NCBI RefSeq assembly: GCF_000002865.3 | Contig: NW_001865043.1 | Coordinates: forward strand, 899,776-940,416 | Length of the DNA stretch: 40,641 nt | Origin: Monosiga brevicollis MX1 | Lineage: Eukaryota > Opisthokonta > Choanoflagellata > Craspedida > Salpingoecidae | Direction of reading: 5' to 3' | In this document: one piece after another, positions 9,780 through 36,775 of the stretch | Numbering within the stretch: the first letter of the stretch is position 1 | Layout of the letters: each line of letters opens with the position of its first letter | Notes under the pieces: model-generated | Seen by the model: the letters and a program-made list of their open reading frames with translations, nothing else | Told to the model about the DNA's origin: nothing | Database searches by the model: none | Program-made: the position numbers and the translations under genes

Positions 9780-12700
9780 CTATAACTCGCTCTCGGCCTG
9801 TTCTTCCCAGGCCACGGATGCCATTGGGTTGCTTGCGTGGCCGGTCAGCGCTGGCACGCTCGATAAGCGCTGCACAGCCACCATGACGTGCGCTGCTGTA
9901 GGCCGAGATGACGGGCGTGAGTGCCACATCTCACGCACCAATCTAAAATCGGGCAAACACAAGGCGAACAAGGGCAGGTGCCATGAGTGGCATGGCGAGG
10001 CTTGCATTTGAACTTATTCAAAAGGGAAGATAGTTACGTACGTCTGCAAGGCAGGTGGTAAGCGGTCGGTGGCGAGACGTTGCCCGCTGTTCAACATTTC
10101 AACCATCATTTGCAGCGTAAAGTTTCCGTAGGGGGTCTGTCCGTTCTGAAAGATCTGCCATGCGCGAAAAACCAGAAGTGGCGTGACTGTTCTTCCCCCT
10201 TATTTGCTTTGGATCAATGGCGAGGGGGTGGGAGGAGGCACCAAAGGCAAAGGAACTCGCGAGTGTGCCCGGTTGTAGCCTGTGATGATGACCAACCTCC
10301 CATGCAGTAACCCCTAGCGCCCAGACATCCGATGCCGTGGTAAATTGACCTTTTTGAAGCGCCTCCAGCGCCATCCAGCTACGCAGTAGCATAATGTTCG
10401 CAAGATATGAAGCGACCGCGCAAACTAAGTGTCAAACGCTAACACGCATATGCAAGGCGTGCTCGATGCCAATCTCAACTCACCGGAACGGCAAGCTATC
10501 GAGCTGAGATGTGCGGTAATAGTCCTCGGAATTTCGCAAGAAACGACTCACTATCCCAGTTGCATGTCAACAAGTCAGATCAAGCGAAGCCTTGAGCTGT
10601 CTCCGTGCGGGCACGATGGCAGCAGCAGCCTGATTTGCCAACTCACGGCCAACGTCGCCTAGTTTTGCGACCAGAGCTCCATTTCGATCGGAGAAAAGAA
10701 GAACATTCCGACTTGCAACGTCGCGGTGGACTAGACGATGTGCGTGAAGATGGGCCAGTCCATCGGCAATGTGCATCAAAAGTAAGATCTAAAGGGATAT
10801 TGCCAAGGCGCAGTCGTCCACTCGGGCCGTGAATACGATACCAGTTCAGCAGCTCATCACATCGAGCTTTAAGGCATGAATCCGATGATGCACGCATTCT
10901 GGCGGCATCAACGCTTACTCGCTCGAGTTCACCAAGCCGTTTTCCAGGGCTGAGCAGGTAAGCACGCAGACTTCCAAGGTTCGCGAGCTCAAAAACTAAA
11001 GCAATTGGCATGCTAGTAAACATCGCATGAGGAAGCATGGGTGAGATTGGCGTGCAAAATTTGCAAATCAGAGGTTGAGTGGAATCGGGAATGATTGGAA
11101 AGATGTCCTGGGGCCGACGTGGTCACGAGCGCGTGAACACACACACACACACACACAAACAAACAAACAAACAAACACACACAAACAAACAAAACAGAGA
11201 AAATTGGGCTCAACGCACCTATCATGCACGATGCCTAGCAGCTTCACTAGATGCGGGTGTGGTGGTATTAAATGCAGTGTGGCAGCCTCCAACATAGCAG
11301 CTTTGTGATCCATGTCCTGCACCGGGGTCACAAACTTGATCGATGAGCAAATGTGTGAACAATGCCTATGCCAACGCCTGTCACGAACCTTGACAGAAAA
11401 GGTTTTGAGTGCGACAACGGGCGGAAAATTCTTGATGTGTTGGAGCGGAGCGGCCTGCATGGTGCATGCGTCAGGCAAAGTCCACCATGAAAGCAAAAGC
11501 CAACAGAGCTGGAACATGACAGGAAACTCCCACACGCAAAGGAACGCACTTCATACACGGCCCCGAAGTTGCCCTTGCCAAGGGTAGACCCGATGCGGAG
11601 CCATGATCTATCAAGTCAACATGGACATAATGACCAGGCGTGCGCGCACAGCACCCCATCCTCTACATGGCTCGCACGGGAACAGTGGAACAAACACTGC
11701 CAAGCGCTTGTGGGGGCACGACAAGACTTACGCCGAAAGAAGGGTCATCGGTTCTTGCCGGCGCGTTTGAAGTACTTCGGAGAGACGTGGGGCATCTTGA
11801 CCATTCTCTGGCAATGACTGCAGTTGCACGGCGATTTGCTGCAAACACATCTCCAGTTGACCGGCAGCCGACATCGGTATGGCCGAGCCCAAGGCATCGG
11901 CAGGTTCCAAACGATGTGTCGTGCGCGCGCGCCACCAAACAATGAAACAAAGGACAACAACCAAACAACCGCCCACTATGGATCCAAGGATCACTGCCAT
12001 ATTTTGTGGTTGCTGAGACGTGAGCGATTTGGGGGCCCTCGTAGAGGTGTGGTCTACTAAAGCTGTTGTTACCTCAATGCTGGCTTGCGTGGTGCTAGGA
12101 CCAGCGACCCTGAGAATGCCCAAGCCAAGACAGGACTTGGCAGTGAGCGGACATACACACCAACAGAGTAATGCACACACGGAAGTCCAACAGCGGGCGA
12201 CTGTCTTACAAGAAGTTTGGATTCCATAAGAGGGTGCTTCGCTCGGCGCTGGTTGAGACCAGATCGAGACGACCATCGTTATTGATATCAGCAAACGCCA
12301 CGTCCGATGCCCCTCGATCCAGCAGGGAAATGGGCAGCATGGTAGAAAAGCTGTCCTCGCCCTCGTTCCTCAACCATACAATGCGGAGGGTCGTGCTCAG
12401 TGCAGCCACGACATCAACTCGACCATCCATATCTATGTCTTGCAACCAAAATCCTCTCACAACCGAGACCGTGGTGCCTTGCAAAATCACCCCATGATGA
12501 TCCCATGCCGCATCCAGTGAGTTGCGAAACCAGCTGATGGTATAGTCAAGTGTACCCACAACCAGATCAAGCAAATCGTCGCCATCCATATCAGCAACAT
12601 CGAGATACAGGATTGGCCCACCCGCGGCTACAAGTGCCTGCGCCGGGGCCACTGCGCCCTGGCCAAGGCCTCTCAAGCACCACACAATAGCATGGGATGT

Positions 12701-14416
12701 ATCAGACACCATTAGATCCCGATGCGAGTCTTGGTCAATATCTCCCACAGCGAGGGCGATGGTTGACACCGCGGCATTGGCACTGTGCAATACAGCCCGT
12801 ATACCAAATGAACCGTTGCCAAAGCCGCGGTACCAGCCCACGCTACCGTCCCCGCATTCAGCTGTGAGTAGATCCAGGTGGTCGTCGCCATTCCAATCGA
12901 GCACGTTCATGGCACAGATTTGTGAGGCGCCAGAATCAATCGTGATGGGAGATGAAAATCTACCATTACCCAAATTGGAAAGCCAAGCCAATGTGCTGAG
13001 TGTCGGGCTGGCTGTGAGCACATCCACGAGGCCGTCCTCGTTCAAATCGCAAGTGTCAACGATAGCCACGCCGGAGCCACGGCTCTCCTGCACCAAGCGA
13101 GCACTACCAAAGCTCCCGTTGTTTAAATTCTTATACCACAGCACGGTACCATCCACCGAACTGGCTACAAGCGCATCGACGAGGCCGTCCTGATCAAAAT
13201 CGGCGGTTGCACACGGGCCAGGTCGATCCATGTCTGACTCGAATATGGTCCTTTCCTCTCCAAAAAGTCGTCTTGTGTACACGGTGTCCGTGGAACCGGC
13301 ATTACGACGCCAAACAAGACCAGTGGTGCGGCGCGATGCATGCACGAGATCAAGCCAACCGTCTCCGTCCACATCCAAGGCTGCAATGCTATTTAGATCA
13401 CCCGTGGATATTTGCAAGGGCGAAGAAAAGGATGCATTGCCAAGATTGAGGAACCAAGTGAAGAACTCGTTCCCAGTGATGAACAACATGTCTGGAGCAC
13501 CGCTTTGAGTAAAGTCTTCAAGAATAATTTGCCGAACGTCGTGAAGGCGGATTGTCAGGTTGGTGGAAAACCCATGCCCTGAAGCGAGGCGGTTTTGTAC
13601 AAACAAAGCGCTGTTGTCTCCGCCCACCACCACGTCTACCGCGCTATCGCCGTCCACATCTCGTACACTCACAGCCTGTGCCTTGTCGAGGCCCTGCACG
13701 ATGAGCTGCCAAGATGAAAAGGAGCCATTGCCCTGGCTCGGCCACCATAGTACACGGCCTTCGTTGATACATGGCGCCACGATGTCAAGCCAACCATCGC
13801 CATTCAAGTCTCCGGCAGCCAGCTGGCGCGGGCCATCGCACAAGCCGGGCAGGATTTGCACTGAGCTGGCGTTGAAGGCGCCGTGTGCATTTGGGTACCA
13901 GACAATGCGATCATTGCCATAGTCGGAAACTACCAAGTCCAGGAAACCGTCGTTGTCTAGATCCTCTGCGAGTAGTCCGCGAACTTCATCGTGCACCGTC
14001 GACACAATAATACCGGCAGAAAAGTTGCCACCGCCTGTATTTCTAAACCAGACCAACGAGTCATCATTGGTACTGCCGGCCGCCACGTCCACCCACCCGT
14101 CGTGGTCAAAGTCACCAACAGCGCCCTGGAAGGCCGCATGGATAACGCCAACAAGTCGCTGCGGCCCAAAGGTTCCATTGCCCAAATTTCGGTACCAAGT
14201 CACTTGATCGTTGTAGGAAGCGACTGATATCACATCTACCCAACCATCGTTGTCCAGATCAGCAGTCAGCACATCCCTGATGTCAACGACCGCCTTGGAG
14301 ATGTCATTGTTGGTCCAGGTGAGTTGATAGCTGTCGCTTGTTGGTGGGATGGCCGCAAACGAGATGCTGACCAGAACCGCGAGGACGGCCAAGCCAGCCC
14401 ATCGTCCCTTTGCCAT
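9780..14416 (-). CDS. Receptor tyrosine kinase with FG-GAP/VCBS-repeat ectodomain
   Basis: Predicted single-pass membrane receptor tyrosine kinase, 1155 residues. Eleven exons join in phase: 12210-14416, 11732-12109, 11550-11607, 11389-11454, 11219-11316, 10919-11012, 10647-10788, 10484-10550, 10297-10378, 10042-10154, 9780-9942. Residues 1-21 form a signal peptide (start MAKGRWAG; an in-frame ATG lies upstream at 14479). About 13 FG-GAP/VCBS repeats follow, with Ca-binding DxDxDGxxD loops such as DLDNDGWVDV and DINNDGRLDL, enough for one or two beta-propellers. The transmembrane helix is near 772-794 (MAVILGSIVGGCLVVVLCFI). The kinase shows the glycine loop GKGNFGAVYE, VALK (Lys about 898), HRDVASRN (the AxRN-type loop of tyrosine kinases), GDVG in place of DFG, an activation loop with paired Tyr (NSEDYYRTS), WMALEAL for the APE region, SDVWALGV, and a closing RP motif. 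Asp and Lys are kept, so activity is plausible. The tail after the kinase is short. Confidence 0.9.
11137..11193. repeat. Intronic (AC)n and (AAAC)n microsatellites
   Basis: An AC dinucleotide run followed by AAAC repeats. It lies in the kinase-gene intron between the alpha-C exon (11219-11316) and the hinge exon (10919-11012). Confidence 0.9.
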
Positions 14417-14926
14417 TCCAAGCGTGGAGTACCCATGCATGCCTGCCTCAAACCTGACCCCCCCCCCCCGCTTGTTCACGCCTCGAACCTCAATGCAAGC
14501 TGGACATTGCCGTTCTCATCCCAACCTTTTGCCAAGACGACAGCCACCAAGATCCGTGTCCAATCCATCCAAAAAAAAAAAAAGAGAGAGAGAGAGAGAG
14601 CAGGGAGGGATGAATGAAAAAGTTGTAAAAAAGATCTCTCACATGACATGTGTTGTTTTCTTGCGATTTCTTCATGTTGGATTGACAATAAGGCATGTTG
14701 TATGAGGGAGGCAGCGGTGACAACGGCACCCATTCAAGCTGAACGACATCAAGTCGACCATCTTCAATTGCATTGATAGACACCTGAATTTACATGTTAA
14801 GTTTGCTTTTCTTGTGGCCATGGAAACAAGCATCAGACTCAGAAAGGAAGAGGGGTGGGGAAAACAACGGGCAAAAGGCAGAATAGGTCCTTTTTTTGAA
14901 CAAAAATTGAGGTAACATGGCAGAGC
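14417..14926. other. 5' flank of the RTK gene, 3' flank of the RRM gene
   Basis: About 510 bases between the kinase start and the stop codon of the RRM gene; both genes lie on the minus strand. It contains an A13 run followed by (GA)n at 14571-14600, which is a CT tract on the coding strand of the kinase gene. I see no other gene. Confidence 0.5.
14571..14600. repeat. A13 plus (GA)n tract upstream of RTK start
   Basis: Poly-A followed by GAGAGAGA on the plus strand, about 155-185 bases upstream of the kinase start codon. Confidence 0.9.
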
Positions 14927-16817
14927 TTAGCGTCCATAAGCGCTACCGTAAGCACCGGCATACTGCTGTTGTTGTTGCTGAGGCTGTTGTTGATAGCTCA
15001 TGTTGTAGGCGCCCTGCTGGCCACGCTGGCCCTGTGCACCTGCAGCCGTCTGATACTGGAGGTGGGTGGGTTGTTGCTGGGCCTGCTGTTGGCCTTGCAC
15101 CTGACCCTGGGCGCTATACGCGTTACCATAAGCACCTCGCTGTGCCGTTTGCTGCATGCCTTGTTGGTTGTAACCGCCGTAGCTGTTGGCCGCACCAGCC
15201 ATTTGGCCTTGGTTGTAACCCATCTGACCATAACCTCCAGCTGTCTGCAGGCCAGCAGCACCGCGCTGGCCAGCCGTCATGCCGGCACCACCAGCGGCAC
15301 CGCTCATGTTGCCAGCAACGCCGCCAGCTGCACCAGCCATGCCGCCAGCTGCCATGCCACCCATGCCACTGCCGGGCATGCCGGGCATACCGCCCGCAGC
15401 CATACCACCCATGCCGCCCATCCCGGGCATGCCACCCATACCAGGCATCATCTGCATCATGCCATACTGCAGGATCGTGTAGCGAAGATCGAGGTGAGAA
15501 CGAGACGTGAAGCACGCGTTCAAAGCGGAGCATCAGCAGCTCTCACCGCATTGGGCATCATGCCATAGCCCATGCCACCCATGGGAGCACCACGACCACC
15601 CCGGAACTGCGTATACGGAAAAGGAGACACAAGATACAGCGTGAAGACCGGGTCACATTGTGGAGATGGGAGAGCGCAAATGATCAATGACGCATGATGA
15701 ACACTGCTGGGCGACTGGTATCGTATCCGCCATACTTGGCCTGACGTGCCACCACGGCTGGAGGGATCGGCGCTGTTGCCGGTGCGCTTGGTGGCCGGAC
15801 CAGTGCGAATCTAGAGACAACGCCAAAGCACGTCAGGCGTGCACGTAGAAGATAGGTGCACAATGAGTGGTGCGGTAAGAGCCCCCATTGATCGGAGAAA
15901 AGAAGAAGAGAAATGAAAAGGCCCGGGGGGCGGGGGGCGGGAGGCAATGGGGCTTGTGTTCAAGAGTGATGGAGATGGCCGCACCTGGCGATCGCCGATG
16001 AAGCTGTTATGCATGGCACGCATGGCTTCGGAAGCCGTGTTGCGGTCGGCAAAGGTCACAAAACCGAACCCACGAGAACGGTTTGTCTCGCGCTCGAGGA
16101 TCACATTGGCCGACAGGGGGCTGTAACGCTCAAAGTGGCGGAGCAAGTCCTGTTCGCGCGCTTCGTATGGGATGCCACCAACAAAGACCTTGCAGTTGGG
16201 ATCGTCTGGGGTAGCAGGCTGGCCGGGTGCCGCAGGACGACCCATGCCACCAGCTCCACCCGCTGGCATGGAACCAAGGGGGGCTGACTGAGTCAGTGGC
16301 GTATGGACCGCGGAAGTGGCCGGTGCGGGCGCAGGGTGTGTTTGGGCAGGTGCGCTAGACATTTGAGTGGTGGTGTTGGTGTTTGGGGCTGCTGGCACAG
16401 GCACGTTTTGCGGGGCAGCGGTGGGCGCGGATGTTGATGTGGACGAAGTTGTCGACGTTACAGGCGCAGGCACCGTGGAAGGAGCCCCAGTCGAGGTGGA
16501 GGCGGGAGCACTTGAGGAAGCAGGCCTAAATAATTGATCATGCGGGCACAAGAGGCAGCAAAAGGAAAACGCCATCAAGTGAGATAGCAAGTCGATCATT
16601 CACTGTGTCGTGTGCAAAAGCTTTGCATAGGTATGACATGTTCTTTTATGCGATGGAACATGGGTTGGCGGACAAGGAAGGAACAAAGGGGGGTCGTGGG
16701 GCTGCAAGGCGCAAGAAAGAAGAAGCACAAGGCCAAGAACACAACGACATACGCAGCAGGGGTGCTGCCAGGGGTGGTAGCAGTGGTTGCAGTGGACTGA
16801 GCAACACTCGAATTTGA
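14927..16817 (-). CDS. RRM RNA-binding protein with TIA1-like RRM and Gly/Met/Gln-rich tail (5' end incomplete)
   Basis: Probable RNA-binding protein of nuclear or stress-granule type. Five exons join in phase: 15985-16525, 15736-15810, 15547-15606 and 14927-15466, preceded by 16753-16817. The exon order is a Ser/Thr/Pro/Ala-rich linker, one RRM, then a low-complexity tail. RNP2 is KVFVGGI and RNP1 is RGFGFVTF. The RRM end, GDRQIRTGPATKRTG, closely resembles GGRQIRTNWATRKP in RRM2 of TIA-1/TIAR. The tail has PGMGGM-type repeats, then Gln/Tyr/Gly/Ala-rich sequence (QQQPQQQQQQYAGAYGSAYG), a prion-like composition. No ATG opens the 16753-16817 exon, so at least one exon lies upstream; the SAP exon at 17899-18064 is a candidate but does not join directly in phase. 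Hits to TIA1, PUB1 or other hnRNP families would all be compatible. Confidence 0.85.
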
Positions 16818-23562: not shown

Positions 23563-25317
23563 TTAGGTCGACGTACTGCCAGTGTCGCGCAGGACAATGC
23601 TCAAGGTATTGGTGCTCGCTGAGACGGAGAGGAGATCATTACCCTCGGCATCATCATCGCAATACACTTCAGCGGCAACATTGTCCTCGTTCTCGGCGGC
23701 CAGGTAACATTGAAAGCCACCGACGTCACCACTGGCCCACACCGCCGTCGCTTGCTCCGACTCCTCACGCACAAAGCAGAGTGTTACATCCAGGCGAATG
23801 TCTTTCTCTAATTGACCGTGGTGGGCTACTGTGTAATCAAGACCAGGACGGAATCGACGGATTTGGGAGGTAACCGCGCTAAGGCGACCACCCGTCACCC
23901 GCTGCAGCCACTTGGCAAAGGCAGTGGATTGGAAGAGCTCGGTCTTAATCTCATGAAGCTTCTGACCGGCCAGGCGCGCTGCTGTCACGGCCTCTGCTTG
24001 ATTGTCTTGGGGGGCGTTGGCACCGTTGCTGTCGCCGTTGGTAGTTGCATCGGGACCGGGGAAGGTGAGGAAGCGCTGCATGTGGGCCGGACCGCGCGCA
24101 ATCCAACCTCCACCCATGCCTGTGGCATCAGGGGGCAAGCCGTCCAATTGGAGGTTGGACTTGACGTCTGCGTCCATGCAGAGACCATGGACGGCGTCGC
24201 CGAGGGAGGGGTGCAGAAACTTGCGAAGTTGCAGGGAAGATTCGTCTTCAAACTTGGCGGAAAGAGCTTGAAGGGCGTCGTCCTTGAGGTAAGCCTCATT
24301 GAGAAAACGCGCCAGGTAGGCACGCTCATCGGCCGTGAGCTCGGTATCGACGGCCGGGGGCTCGCTGTCGGGAGCGGTTTGGGGTTCCGGCTTTGGAGTC
24401 AATCCCGGGATGGAGACGGGGGCTTCGGTTTCGGCACGCGCAATCTTGAGTTGATTGAGCGAGGCCATTTCGGTGCCTTCGGGTTCAGAGGCAGCATGAA
24501 ACCAGCCCTGGATGCTGAGGCGCGGGCTGCCTTCGCGCATGACTTCTTGAACAGCGTGGTAGCTGCGACCAGGCTCGACGCGGAAAAAAGCCATGGTGTT
24601 GAAGAGAGGGAGGAGGCGTGCGGCAGGAATGGTTGAGGGAACCCCCTGTTCGAGTTGGCTCTTATCGGCACGTGTGAAGCTGGTCTGGGAGCTCTTTTCG
24701 AGGGGGAAGAGCTCGAGGGCACCGCCATCCTTTTCCGTCCAATCCTCGGCAGAAAAGTAAATGATGAAGGAGACGGCGCGGCTGCCAATGACGTCGTCGT
24801 GGCAAAGGAGGTGGCAACCCTCGGCGTATGCGGAAGCAGCCATGTCGACGCGATCAGTGAGCTCCCCGCAGCCTGCAATGCGCGAGATCATGCGACGAAA
24901 GGGTCCAGAGTAGAGGGCATCGCGCAGCTGGAGGAGGGTGGGCAGCTTGGCGGCCAGCTCAGGGTTGGTGCTGTCAACGTTGGCGAGGTCGGTCGTTTGG
25001 TAGAGCTTGAAGAGATCTGTTTCCTTGAACTTGGTCTCGAGCGTGCCGACAATCTCGTCGCGTACTTTTGTCAGGAGGTCGGTGGGGCAGAGCGGGGAGA
25101 AGACACAATGGCTGTATGGGGCTGCATTGACGTAGCGTTTGCGATTCTCGGCTATGGTGGCTTCCTCCAGGAGGTGCGGGGCGAGGACAGACAAGTCCAC
25201 GGCCGGCGCGATTTTGCCGCGCTTTGCTTGGGGCTCGGTCGAGACATCGTTGCTTCCGTTCATATTGTTGTTGGTGGTGCTGCTGTTGCCAGCACTGTCG
25301 CCGTTGAGGTCGGCCAT
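23563..25317 (-). CDS. OGFOD1: OGFOD1/Tpa1-like prolyl hydroxylase (2-oxoglutarate, Fe(II) dioxygenase)
   Basis: Homologue of OGFOD1 and yeast Tpa1, which hydroxylate a proline of small-subunit ribosomal protein uS12 (RPS23) and influence translation termination and stress responses. It is a single exon of 584 residues; human OGFOD1 has 542. Fe(II) ligands are His173 and Asp175 in CHDDVIGSR and His254 in SYHAVQEV. Arg266 in RLSIQGWFH is the expected 2-oxoglutarate anchor. The family's second, non-catalytic double-stranded beta-helix follows, ending with VEVYCDDDAEGND-type sequence. The basic patch AKRGK near residue 31 could be a nuclear signal. The start chosen is MADLNGDSAG at 25317; the same frame stays open upstream to 25587, but that part reads as untranslated leader, with a possible intron acceptor (CTTTAG) just before it. 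Confidence 0.92.
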   Translation of the reverse strand: MADLNGDSAGNSSTTNNNMNGSNDVSTEPQAKRGKIAPAVDLSVLAPHLLEEATIAENRKRYVNAAPYSHCVFSPLCPTDLLTKVRDEIVGTLETKFKETDLFKLYQTTDLANVDSTNPELAAKLPTLLQLRDALYSGPFRRMISRIAGCGELTDRVDMAASAYAEGCHLLCHDDVIGSRAVSFIIYFSAEDWTEKDGGALELFPLEKSSQTSFTRADKSQLEQGVPSTIPAARLLPLFNTMAFFRVEPGRSYHAVQEVMREGSPRLSIQGWFHAASEPEGTEMASLNQLKIARAETEAPVSIPGLTPKPEPQTAPDSEPPAVDTELTADERAYLARFLNEAYLKDDALQALSAKFEDESSLQLRKFLHPSLGDAVHGLCMDADVKSNLQLDGLPPDATGMGGGWIARGPAHMQRFLTFPGPDATTNGDSNGANAPQDNQAEAVTAARLAGQKLHEIKTELFQSTAFAKWLQRVTGGRLSAVTSQIRRFRPGLDYTVAHHGQLEKDIRLDVTLCFVREESEQATAVWASGDVGGFQCYLAAENEDNVAAEVYCDDDAEGNDLLSVSASTNTLSIVLRDTGSTST

Positions 25318-26385
25318 GCTAACAAGTTGGGCCGTACGAGCAGTCCTAAAGCACGATGACCATGGCGGGTGATCAGAGAAGTGGTTGTGACAGCATCGAG
25401 AAACCCCGCCCGGAGATAGGGCGCGCGTGAAGTGCCAGGCCAATGGCAGCCCCAGGCTTTGGTGTGCTTGTGTCCATTGTGCATGATGGGGCGGGGGTGT
25501 GATGGGGGCAAAGTGGCTGACAAAGAGAATCAGTGCACCACACAAAGAATCAAAATTCCCAAAAAAACAACCATGTGCTTGAAACACACACTCATGCTAC
25601 CAATACACAAGGCCCTCCTTATGTGTGTATGTCTGTGTGTGTGTGTGTGTGTGTCTGTGTGTGTGTTGTGTGTGTTCTCTCTCTCTTTCTTTCTCTCTTT
25701 CTCTCTTTCTCTCTTTCTCTCTTTCTCTGTAACATATGAACGGGAAAGCAAAAAGTCACACAAAGAAGACTTACCCTTGTCTTGGTGCAGCAAATCGCTT
25801 TCAAGGAGAGAGAGAGTTGAGTGCGTGTTGGCTTGATGTCAAGCACACAGCAAACAACAACAACTCGCGCGCTCGCTCTCGGCCTCACGCGCACGGTCGC
25901 TCGCTCAAGCTGAGCGAGCGCGCACACGGGCGACGGCGGGTGGTAGCAAGGGCACCAAAGGTCACTTGGCTGCACGGTGTGTGCGGCTGTGGGCAGCTGG
26001 GACGGACGGGCTGCAAGTTTGAGCTGGTGGTCCGCAGCTTCGGACAGACAAATGGGCAGGGGCAGCAGCAGCCTGGCTCGCATGCGCTGAATCGCGGCAA
26101 GGGTTGTGGACAGGCAGCGATGAAGAACCCAGGGATCCCGGCTGGTTGCGGCAGCGCTATTGTGTGGGCTGGTTCAAGCACGCGACACCACGTTGGGATT
26201 GGAGAAAATGGCAGCTCAACAAGCCGATCTGTGCAGAGCGGGTGCTCTCCAGCTCAAGAGAGCGTGTGTGTGTGTGTGTGAATGCGAGGAAGTGTTTTCA
26301 AGCCCGTTAACGTTGAAACCTTATTTAAACCTTATCACTACTACTCCATTGGATGTTGGGACGTTTGGATGATCTCTCTGTGTTG

Positions 26386-27866: not shown

Positions 27867-28673
27867 GATGATGGTTCGGTTGGCTGTCGAAATCAAACGG
27901 GAAATCAACTAGGCAGAAACACACGCCCAAGCATCCAGCAGAACACAAGGTGAGTATCACAAGAGAGTCGCAACAAAGCCACCCGGCCCAATCTTCTGCA
28001 CCCGACTCACGAGATCCCTCCAAACAAAAACCGCGAGCGGCCAAACAAGTCTGATTCCTGGCCGCAACCGAGAACCAAAACCAAAACAGGTCGCGTCATT
28101 CCATAAAAACAATAAAGGGCAACTGCCATGGAAGATAAATCCCATCTTCACCTCACGAATCTCTTCCCCTTGCGCCCGTCCCTCCTGGGCCACGCTTCCC
28201 AACCACCGGCCACCGCCGAAACCCAACGGCAAGACCACTGCCGCTCATCACTGGCGAGCGAGCGAGCCTCATCCAGCAGCTTGCGCTGTATTGTTGGAGG
28301 CCAAAGACCAACCTGCTTGCAAGCAAAAATGTCGTCATGTTTTCCTTGGCTGGAGTTGGACCCGGAAAAGCTCAACAAGCTAAAAGTTTTACCACGAAAA
28401 ATCAGATTCAAGTCTATACAAACCATGCACCGCATGCACTTTTCTTTTTATCCCGTACGTGCTGTGTGATGGACCAGAAAGACGCTGCCCTTGGCGCTGC
28501 CGCTGCCGCTGCCGTCACCGCTTGTCGCCTGAGGCTGGGTTGTTAAACCCCTGTGTACCTGCTCTGCCACCCCCTCACAAGCCTTGGCTCACACCATTCC
28601 TGCTGCCACTCGTAATGTTGACAGGATCGCTAAGTCAAATTTTTTTGAACCGGGCCATAACCTCACCGTCAAA
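27867..28673. other. Divergent promoter region of ACBP and P0
   Basis: About 800 bases between the start codons of two housekeeping genes transcribed away from each other. It contains no domain-bearing frame. It probably holds both promoters and leader introns. Unlike other upstream regions here it has no long CT tract. Confidence 0.5.
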
Positions 28674-29606
28674 ATGGTCAAGGTCGATCGCAAGACTTGG
28701 AAGAAGCTGTACTTCCAGCGCTTCTACGAGTACCTCGAGAAGTTCTCGCGCATCCTCATTGTGCACGCCGACAATGTTGGCTCCAAGCAGATGCAGGACA
28801 TCCGCGCTGCCCTCCGCGGCAACTGCGAGCTCCTGATGGGCAAGAACACCATGGTCCGCCGTGCTCTCCTCGACCACGAGAACGAGATCTTCCACGAGCT
28901 GCTCCCCCACATCAAGGGCAACGTTGGCCTTCTCTTCACCAACGACGACTTTGTCGCCATCCGTGACGTCCTCCTTGACCACAAGGTTGCCGCCCCTGCC
29001 CGTGTCGGTGCCATTGCCCCCGAACCCATCATCATCCCCGCTGGTCCTACCGGTCAGGATGCCCAGAAGACTTCCTTCTTCCAGGCCCTCAACATCCCCA
29101 CCAAGATTGCCAAGGGCTCCATTGAGATTATCTCGGAAGTCCGTCTTCTGGAGGAGGGTGGCCGTGTCGGTCCCTCGGAGGCTGCTCTCCTGAACATGTT
29201 GGGCATCTCCCCCTTCAGCTATGGTCTCGTCGTCGTCCAGATCTACGAGAACGGTGCCTGCTTCAACCCCAAGATCCTGGACATCACCAACGATGACCTC
29301 GTTGCCAAGTTCATGGAGGGTAGCCGCAAGGTTGCTGCCGTCTCTCTGGCCATTGGCCGCCCCAACCCGGCCTCGGTCCCCCACATGGTCATCAACGGCT
29401 ACAAGAACGTTCTCGCCATCGCTTGCGTCACCGAGATCACCTTCCCTCTCGCCGAGAAGGCCAAGGCTTACCTCGCCAACCCCGAGGCCTTTGCCGTTGC
29501 TGCTGCCCCTGCTGCCGCCGCTGCCCCTGCTGCTGCCGCCGCCGCTGCCCCCGAACCCGAGTCGGAGGATGATGAGGAGATGGACGGCTTCTCCCTCTTC
29601 GATTAA
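28674..29606 (+). CDS. RPLP0: 60S acidic ribosomal protein P0 (uL10)
   Basis: Stalk-base protein of the large ribosomal subunit; it binds 28S rRNA and carries P1/P2 dimers, forming the GTPase-associated centre. A single exon of 310 residues, close to the family length of 310-320. The N-terminal uL10 domain begins MVKVDRKTWKKLYFQRFYEY and includes GKNTMVRRAL. The middle has the insertion domain, and the C-terminus has an Ala-rich hinge followed by the acidic tail EDDEEMDGFSLFD, which is the P-protein signature recognised by elongation factors. The frame opens upstream at 28584, but MVKVD is the family start and follows AAA ATGG. Codons end mostly in C, typical of a highly expressed gene; this bias also creates a long antisense open frame. 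Confidence 0.98.
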   Translation: MVKVDRKTWKKLYFQRFYEYLEKFSRILIVHADNVGSKQMQDIRAALRGNCELLMGKNTMVRRALLDHENEIFHELLPHIKGNVGLLFTNDDFVAIRDVLLDHKVAAPARVGAIAPEPIIIPAGPTGQDAQKTSFFQALNIPTKIAKGSIEIISEVRLLEEGGRVGPSEAALLNMLGISPFSYGLVVVQIYENGACFNPKILDITNDDLVAKFMEGSRKVAAVSLAIGRPNPASVPHMVINGYKNVLAIACVTEITFPLAEKAKAYLANPEAFAVAAAPAAAAAPAAAAAAAPEPESEDDEEMDGFSLFD

Positions 29607-35724: not shown

Positions 35725-35927
35725 AAACCATAGGCCTGAATGTAGTAAAATTGATGTACAAGATAAATCTAGATCAACCTTAAACTCCCCTCTCGCCTCT
35801 CCAGTCCCGTCTCCTCAACCAGCCTGCCGATCCGCTCCTATACAACCAAGCGTTCTTCTCACGCAGCAACAGTCAGCGCGGAAAAAAAAAAAAAAAACTC
35901 ATTTAAGTGGTGTAAAAAAAAGAGTAA
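35725..35927. other. 3' flank of DCTN6 and Pol III terminator region
   Basis: Short intergenic region with an A16 run near 35882-35897 and an A8 run at 35914-35921, which is T8 on the strand of the downstream-facing tRNA gene. Confidence 0.5.
35914..35921 (-). terminator. Oligo-T Pol III terminator of tRNA-Cys copy 1
   Basis: T8 on the minus strand, beginning 6 bases beyond the discriminator base of the tRNA. Runs of four or more T end Pol III transcripts. Confidence 0.75.
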
Positions 35928-36017
35928 GGAGCCTGCACGATATACTCAGCTATTACGCATTCGAACGTACGACCCTTCGGACTGCAGCCGAAAGCTCTAC
36001 CCCTGAGCTAAGACTCC
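35927..36017 (-). tRNA. tRNA-Cys(GCA), copy 1, with 19-base T-arm insertion
   Basis: Read on the minus strand, the gene body is 35928-36017 (90 bases), with discriminator U at 35927. Acceptor strands GGAGTCT and AGGCTCC pair over 7 bp with one G-U. The D arm is GCTC-AGGGGTA-GAGC, identical to animal tRNA-Cys. The anticodon stem is TTCGG/CCGAA with loop CTGCAGT (anticodon GCA). The variable loop is GGGTC. The 5' T stem is GTACG and the loop TTCGAAT. The expected 3' T-stem strand CGTGC, which pairs fully with GTACG, comes only after 19 extra bases (GCGTAATAGCTGAGTATAT). Removing them gives a normal 71-nucleotide tRNA plus U73, the Cys identity base. No intron sits at 37/38. The box A and box B promoters remain intact, because the insertion begins just after the T loop. 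No CCA is encoded. Confidence 0.88.
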
Positions 36018-36162
36018 TAAGCTTACAAGTCCGCCAAAAACTTTTATATATAAATGCTATAAACTTGCAAACCCGATAAAAAGTATGACATCTCGAAAAA
36101 AATTCCAGAACAACCTGTGGTGTGACTGATGTGTAAATGTCATACTTTAAGGTGAACGAGCC

Positions 36163-36167
36163 AAAAA
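36163..36167 (-). terminator. Oligo-T Pol III terminator of tRNA-Cys copy 2
   Basis: T5 on the minus strand shortly after the tRNA 3' end, at nearly the same distance as the T8 of copy 1 although the surrounding sequence differs. Confidence 0.7.
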
Positions 36168-36173
36168 GGATTG

Positions 36174-36264
36174 AGGAGCCTGCACGATATACTCAGCTAT
36201 TACGCATTCGAACGTACGACCCTTCGGACTGCAGCCGAAAGCTCTACCCCTGAGCTAAGACTCC
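36174..36264 (-). tRNA. tRNA-Cys(GCA), copy 2, identical body and insertion
   Basis: The 90-base body (36175-36264) is identical to copy 1, including the 19-base T-arm insertion, with discriminator U at 36174. Flanks differ between the copies, apart from a few bases. The same canonical fold is obtained only after removing the insertion. A T5 run follows 6 bases beyond the discriminator. Both copies face the same way, 247 bases apart, between DCTN6 and the SH3-like gene. Confidence 0.88.
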
Positions 36265-36775
36265 CATTTGTTGAGAATTTGACGAAAATTGTCTTATATA
36301 TATGGTAAGCAGACGATAAAAAAATTTGAAATTTTTGAATTTTGTGTTGTGTGTGTGTTGCTTTTTGCGAGAGAGCGTGAGTGCGAGACTGCGGCTGGTC
36401 GAGTTCCTTCAAAAGCTTCTGGTGCTCATTCGAAATCTGGCGCATTGCTTCACGGAGCAGCCTTGCTTTCGTTGCTGAGGCACACGGTATTGACGGGCTG
36501 GTCATGACGCCTTCCGAGGCGGTGTGATGGCTCTCCATGCGCCCTCACCGCTTTCTTCAATTTTGTGGTGGGAGTAGATTGACACGATTTTGACTTGTCT
36601 CGTGCTCGAGCTCATATTTGTTGTACTCAGTGAGAGGTACGCTGGCCCTCTCCTTGTGCCTGCCGCCCACCCAACGCGCGTCCTTGCGCGGTGTTGCCTC
36701 TGCATTAACAGACGCTTGGTCTGCCGAATGCCTGGCCCATTGTCGACTTGGACAGCCACAAACCCCACCAGCACC
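36265..36775. other. Upstream region of the SH3-like gene
   Basis: About 500 bases between tRNA-Cys copy 2 and the start codon at 36776. AT-rich at the left (36290-36350). No gene is supported; it presumably carries the promoter and 5' leader. Confidence 0.45.

Follow-up and report, generated by a model that had tools for sequence, protein, structure and literature searches.

The two tRNA-Cys(GCA) genes encoded in a 40,641-nt stretch of the Monosiga brevicollis MX1 genome (the window; C52:899776-940416 in the contig labels used for genome coordinates) are very probably functional nuclear genes with an ectopic intron in the T loop, which would be removed by the tRNA splicing endonuclease. The basis for this reading is the structure of the genes, their repeated, unlinked copies, the constancy of the exons beside variable inserts, a genome search in which no uninterrupted Cys gene was found, matches for the endonuclease and for RtcB, and promoter- and terminator-like signals. 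From these features we infer transcription, cutting and joining, the exact splice sites and the enzyme responsible. A probable non-canonical T-arm intron had been proposed in a sequence-only reading of the window. The proposal is supported by the interruption of all three Cys genes found, and it is much stronger than one gene pair could make it because of the T-loop inserts in tRNA-Ala(AGC) and tRNA-Lys(CTT) and the permuted tRNA-Thr(AGT) genes. It is also likely, although held with less confidence, that the nuclear tRNA genes of this choanoflagellate are widely disrupted, in an archaea-like manner. T-loop introns would interrupt each gene found for Cys(GCA), Ala(AGC) and Lys(CTT) at about 59/60, the Lys genes would have a further intron near 65/66, and tRNA-Thr(AGT) would be made from permuted genes by way of a circular RNA; a splicing endonuclease of unusually broad specificity would process them all.

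Both Cys genes of the window are found on the minus strand (copy A, 36264-36175; copy B, 36017-35928), are 90 nt long and are identical over this length. The 5′ exon of copy A (36207..36264; positions 1-59, ending in TTCGAA) is identical in the three Cys genes found, and its joined exons are called tRNA-Cys by ARAGORN. It is followed by a 19-nt T-arm insert (36188..36206), placed by a deletion scan with its register (59/60, or 58/59 with the same mature tRNA) taken from comparison with the third gene. The 3′ exon (36174..36187) contains position 60, the 3′ strand CGTGC of the T stem, the 3′ strand of the acceptor and U73 at 36174, and was recognised from a 12-bp complement to the 5′ exon; it too is identical in the three genes. 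U73 is an identity element of tRNA-Cys. The equivalent parts of copy B, assigned by copy and exon comparison, are the 5′ exon (35960..36017), the 19-nt insert (35941..35959) and the 3′ exon (35927..35940) with U73 at 35927. In the flanks, copy A has a Pol III terminator-like T5 run at 36163..36167 and a TATA-like sequence approximately 30-40 nt upstream (36294..36303), while copy B has a T8 run of the same kind at 35914..35921 and a TATA-like sequence at 36042..36053. Other features of the window are Pfam matches to FG-GAP repeats (12206-14512, minus), an RRM domain (15814-16599, minus), an Ofd1-type 2OG-Fe(II) oxygenase (23566-25596, minus) and the ribosomal protein L10P family (28533-29603, plus).

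The pairing described in the sequence-only reading was borne out: the acceptor pairs over 7 bp, including one T-G wobble, and the T stem over five pairs, one of which is U-G. When both strands of the window were searched for the 12-bp complement formed by the T stem and acceptor, it was present at 3 of 81,258 positions, and the two Cys genes account for two of these. The anticodon arm is continuous and the insert is situated in the T loop, outside 37/38, and it is thus not a canonical eukaryotic intron at that site.

Across the whole window ARAGORN made no tRNA call and Rfam gave no match of any family at gathering score; in a permissive Rfam search both copies scored 22.9 bits, short of the gathering score (29). 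Removal of 19 nt from the T arm leads to an ARAGORN call of tRNA-Cys(GCA), whereas none of six Cys, Lys and Ala precursors tried was called, in keeping with the earlier statement that the two genes are complete only after this removal. Deletions of 0-40 nt were scanned along the 91-nt gene including U73, and 89 of 2952 yielded an ARAGORN call. The majority of these (77/89) have lengths of 17-21 nt and begin between bases 54 and 71; the remaining 12 measure 1, 6-12, 16 or 22 nt, with starts at bases 64-71. The scan supports a T-arm insert of approximately 19 nt and leaves its borders unfixed. A sequence-only profile was trained on 31 intact tRNAs of M. brevicollis, with Cys and Ala-AGC absent from the training set. 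A 19-nt deletion was placed at 73 sites, 48 of which gave any score, and the best of these start at base 58, 59 or 60; these three score equally, as expected from the two-base slide of the border noted before. The gain on removal is only 3.5 bits (from 23.5 to 27.0), and even after joining, the Cys sequence scores lower than every one of the 31 intact genes (minimum 36.7). A spliceosomal or self-splicing intron is hardly credible as an identity for the insert, which has no GT-AG ends, matches no Rfam family at gathering score within the window and, at 19 nt, is generally far below the size of group I, group II or spliceosomal introns.

A third, unlinked Cys gene was found by DNA search at C17:44491-44584, with a 23-nt insert and exons identical to those of the window copies. 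Provided that this gene makes the same tRNA, the junction can be placed at 59/60 or 58/59; a junction at 60/61 was rejected, as the third copy would then give TTCGAAA and differ from the window tRNA. From this comparison, the intron most likely lies between positions 59 and 60. The flanks of the three Cys genes match at 10-16 of 40-46 positions, which is background, with 3-9 of the nearest 14 upstream bases matching. Since the three genes share their exons and differ in insert and flanks, the exons appear to have been held constant while the insert changed.

The genome search covered 39,470,161 bases in 57 contigs. A published survey of M. brevicollis used 218 scaffolds (PMC6188563), so part of the assembly was probably outside the search and the 57 contigs are probably short of some scaffolds. 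Within these 39.47 Mb no uninterrupted Cys-GCA gene was found by DNA search with the 90-nt gene, by DNA search with the intronless 71-mer or by a D-arm and anticodon pattern allowing up to three mismatches. Abundant canonical genes, which would argue against the intron, are thus not what was found: there are three genes, all interrupted at the same place. The intronless 71-mer matched the same three places only, each match stopping at base 58 or 59. The pattern gave 43 matches, of which the three exact ones are the Cys genes, one with two mismatches is a mitochondrial tRNA-Arg and 39 have three mismatches. Twenty were cut out as loci, and among these a GCA anticodon together with full-length D and anticodon stems was present only in the three Cys genes; the remaining 23 were judged only from 26 letters of each. 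The tRNAs of contig C57 were judged mitochondrial. A genome search with RF00005 scored 63 of 760 candidates and overlooked intact genes for Gly, Pro, Val, Asp and Gln-CTG that turned up afterwards; its silence on Cys is for that reason not used as proof. It has been reported that two-fold-degenerate amino acids have major tRNA genes matching the optimal codons, with lysine excepted in M. brevicollis (PMC6188563). Because that survey covers such amino acids and excepts only lysine in this species, Cys genes were presumably counted in it.

Interrupted T loops are also a feature of tRNA-Ala(AGC). A D-arm pattern search, the second of its kind, gave 35 matches, including five genes with the D arm GGCGCAAATGGTAGCGC on C27, C37 and C42. 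All five contain a T-loop insert of 17-18 nt; the 3′ part of this insert (CTCGAAGACCC) is common to all five and its 5′ part is variable. The joined exons are called tRNA-Ala(AGC) by ARAGORN. The G3:U70 pair spans the insert and A73 is kept, both being identity elements of tRNA-Ala. In the sequence-only profile, in which Ala-AGC had no part in training, the joined sequence scores 21.7 bits and, like Cys, falls below the intact minimum of 36.7. Rfam gave 24.4 and 22.5 bits for two of the genes, the other three being without a match at E <=10. The Lys, Ala and Thr genes were counted with exact patterns, which genes with other D arms would escape.

The disrupted Lys and Thr genes were brought out by a D-arm pattern search for tRNA 5′ halves, which gave 20 matches. 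There are five tRNA-Lys(CTT) genes, four on C32 (C32:250800-253600) and one on C53 (C53:857300-857800). Each contains a T-loop insert of 15-16 nt after TTCGAG and a second insert between the T stem and the 3′ acceptor strand, 34-35 nt in length on C32 and 12 nt on C53. In the gene tested, ARAGORN calls tRNA-Lys(CTT) only with both inserts removed. The joined sequence scores 51.5 bits in the sequence-only profile, where the minimum of the 31 intact genes is 36.7; Rfam scores for the Lys(CTT) genes are 29.9-32.9 bits. In all five, the CCC of the T stem can pair with a GGG near the 3′ end of the second insert, which is not proof of a structure because the pairs never vary. In the four C32 copies the second insert can largely form a hairpin. 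The covariation signal in the second insert is weak: in four informative sequences there are two compensatory changes, and 33 of 500 shuffles had at least as many, while 10 of 500 equalled or exceeded the covariation score.

One intact Lys(TTT) gene was found beside the five disrupted Lys(CTT) genes. A T is present at position 73 in the Lys and Thr tRNAs inspected, intact (Lys-TTT, Thr-CGT) and disrupted alike. In the tRNAscan-SE survey of 2018, M. brevicollis is listed with five Lys-CUU pseudogenes and with one Lys gene per codon not flagged as a pseudogene (PMC6188563). Because one Lys-CUU gene is listed there without the flag, an uninterrupted Lys(CTT) gene may exist, either in scaffolds outside the search or with another D arm.

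The five tRNA-Thr(AGT) genes (C45:417749; C48:594813, 595617, 596579 and 669840) have their halves in reverse order. In each, the 3′ half (ACCAAAGG...GCCT) is upstream and is followed by a 35-nt linker, the 5′ half ending in the anticodon loop and a T-run, with a TATA-like motif approximately 39 nt upstream of the gene. Both halves and the linker are identical in all five. When the halves are rejoined at 37/38, ARAGORN calls tRNA-Thr(AGT); the unit as encoded was also called, only because the circular default of the program joined its ends. The joined sequence scores 59.0 bits in the sequence-only profile (intact minimum 36.7, 31 genes). Judged by their gene order, these are circularly permuted tRNA genes as defined in PMC3978253, each predicted to be one transcription unit. 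Pairing between leader and trailer received no support, as 897 of 2000 shuffled leaders equalled it. The genes also match YrlA, an RNA with a T-arm-then-D-arm order resembling a permuted tRNA, at 28-30 bits in Rfam, where the gathering score is 69; this match is secondary, given that the Thr(AGT) halves are complete.

Folding of the precursors gives several structures, none clearly best, and alternatives compete with the cloverleaf. A competing hairpin in the unspliced form had been predicted for the window copies, and in their free fold it and the T stem are equally stable (-5.4 kcal/mol); the prediction does not extend to the third copy on C17, whose free fold retains the T stem. Positions 59 and 60 bulge from the T-loop fold in normal tRNAs, and the insert might be kept in the mature tRNA as an enlarged T loop, with the extra bases extruded between them. 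Some folds do retain the T stem although the insert is present, and the length of the insert varies between copies (19 and 23 nt), as in a tolerated loop. Retention is nevertheless considered unlikely. A loop of 19-23 nt at the elbow should, on general knowledge, disturb contacts with RNase P, tRNase Z and the ribosome, and the second insert of Lys(CTT) (12-35 nt) together with the permuted Thr(AGT) genes indicates that unusual cutting and joining most likely occurs in this organism anyway.

Across the four families the exons are almost invariant, with no differences in the three Cys, five Ala and five Thr genes and one base (position 66) in one of the five Lys genes. The T-arm inserts exist in two versions in Cys and three in Ala, the first Lys insert in three and the second in five. 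Downstream flanks (+21 to +60) of the disrupted genes are identical at 8-16 of 40 positions in every pair. Upstream (-60 to -15), the Cys genes are at background, the Thr genes are identical at 20-35 of 46 positions with 13-14 of the nearest 14 bases, and one Lys pair is identical at 30/46 and 14/14. Because their upstream flanks are partly alike, some of the Thr and Lys copies may be recent duplicates.

Enough flank was available for 15 disrupted genes (3/3 Cys, 5/5 Lys, 2/5 Ala and 5/5 Thr). A T-run starts 5-15 nt past the gene in all 15, and a TATA-like motif is present in 10 by the same rule as used for the controls. These controls were 63 nuclear tRNA genes called by ARAGORN with distinct flanks; a T-run is found within 45 nt in 59 of them, and a TATA-like motif lies <=70 nt upstream in 46. 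Many other tRNA genes of M. brevicollis are ordinary.

These comparisons bear on whether the disrupted genes are tRNA pseudogenes or tRNA-derived repeats. Such an origin would fit the low covariance scores (22.9 and, for the third copy, 19.3 bits for Cys; 22.5-24.4 for two of the five Ala genes; 29.9-32.9 for Lys) and the pseudogene label given to the five Lys-CUU genes in the published survey (PMC6188563). It has also been reported that D- and T-arm insertions mostly affect one of many synonymous genes, which are supposed pseudogenes (PMC4090602). In M. brevicollis, however, every copy found of Cys(GCA), Ala(AGC) and Lys(CTT) is affected, in copy numbers of 3-5. The exons are without decay, apart from the single base in one Lys gene, despite unrelated downstream flanks, while the T-arm inserts drift. 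On the far side of the insert, the bases needed for pairing and for identity are retained, and T-runs follow all 15 genes with flank. For Cys, neither exon decay nor dispersed copies beside intact genes were seen, the exons being identical and no intact gene having been found. A pseudogene origin is thus quite improbable, and the genes are better read as functional and intron-containing. Their low Rfam scores may explain why genes of this kind were missed by standard scans; in tRNAscan-SE 2.0, the search for non-canonical introns is described for candidates of the archaeal model, with a 20-bit threshold (PMC8450103).

Under the preferred reading, that of an ectopic intron, Pol III would transcribe the Cys precursor from the TATA box and boxes A and B up to the T-run. 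The tRNA splicing endonuclease would then cut both ends of the T-loop insert, and an RtcB-type ligase would join the exons, so that a T stem of 5 bp is again closed by the 7-nt loop TTCGAAT. Through the same enzymes, Ala(AGC) would lose its T-loop inserts and Lys(CTT) both of its inserts, and the circularly permuted Thr(AGT) transcripts would be resolved. As anticodon-loop introns are called by ARAGORN in the Tyr and Pro-CGG genes, tRNA splicing is needed in M. brevicollis anyway. The intron of tRNA-Pro(CGG), at C3:46000-46230, is 47 nt long. The splicing endonuclease domain PF01974 has matches at two genomic loci, and RtcB has a match at one; the PF01974 match on C42 contains an internal stop codon, which perhaps reflects an intron.

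No clear recognition motif is associated with the T-arm inserts. A strict bulge-helix-bulge (BHB) at 59/60 has 2/4 central pairs in Cys, 3/4 in Lys and 2/4 in Ala, and the Thr junction has 2/4. The total over the four families, 9 of 16 central pairs, was reached by 2644 of 20000 shuffles and is no better than chance. The canonical introns give 4/4 central pairs for Pro-CGG and 3/4 for Tyr. A relaxed pairing, UUCG/UGAG, is possible in Cys with a 5-nt 3′ bulge (four intron nucleotides and position 60); in the relaxed pairings the 3′ bulge exceeds 3 nt. The yeast splicing endonuclease is described as cutting strictly at 37/38 (PMC4033280), and the eukaryotic enzyme as requiring the mature domain, with its D/T-loop elbow, for the usual 37/38 introns (PMC6379350). 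Because T-loop inserts would disturb this elbow, the enzyme of M. brevicollis would have to be different or the T-arm introns recognised locally.

If this account is correct, such gene structures are not confined to algae and archaea, and a holozoan endonuclease can cut within the T arm, the choanoflagellates being the sister group of animals. A well-studied choanoflagellate would then be available for testing this cutting. It would also follow that essential genes are overlooked or wrongly labelled in standard eukaryotic tRNA scans, as with the five Lys-CUU pseudogenes in print (PMC6188563). Among the matches listed in the open-licence literature, supplements aside, there was no report of choanoflagellate non-canonical tRNA introns or permuted genes, and no open-licence PubMed Central paper was found combining permuted tRNA with choanoflagellates.

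Permuted tRNA genes are known from other lineages. A list of 2014 contains 34, from red and green algae, a chlorarachniophyte nucleomorph and one archaeon, Thermofilum (PMC3978253). The Thr(AGT) genes resemble these in having the 3′ half first, a TATA-like motif upstream, a T-run downstream and a 37/38 junction, and their 35-nt linker is within the reported range of 1-74 (PMC3978253). They differ from the listed genes in their choanoflagellate host and in being five copies of one gene, located outside the window. A 2025 paper on the green alga Auxenochlorella reportedly also uses the term permuted tRNA.

Eukaryotic non-canonical tRNA introns have been described for Cyanidioschyzon merolae and for nucleomorphs (PMC4090602). 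The nuclear tRNA-Ile(UAU) of C. merolae contains introns at 12/13, 37/38 and 53/54 (PMC9602550). Both organisms have short nuclear inserts outside 37/38, some of them in the T arm and more than one per gene (PMC9602550), and permuted genes in the same genome, including a permuted Thr(AGT) with a 37/38 junction in C. merolae (PMC3978253). In C. merolae, a red alga, BHB-type junctions are predicted and RT-PCR data exist, whereas M. brevicollis is a holozoan with putative introns at 59/60 and, in Lys, approximately 65/66 and a strict BHB no better than chance. The nucleomorph of Guillardia theta also has a T-arm intron in tRNA-Cys(GCA), 3 nt in length and with excision confirmed (PMC4090602). In M. 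brevicollis the inserts are 19 or 23 nt, and the genome is the nuclear genome of a free-living protist instead of a reduced endosymbiont nucleus. Position 59/60 is among those listed for archaeal non-canonical introns (PMC4090602), which have BHB or related motifs, unlike the chance-level motif seen here. The kind of structure is therefore already known; as far as has been checked, the lineage, the combination of 59/60 with about 65/66 and the absence of a clear motif are new.
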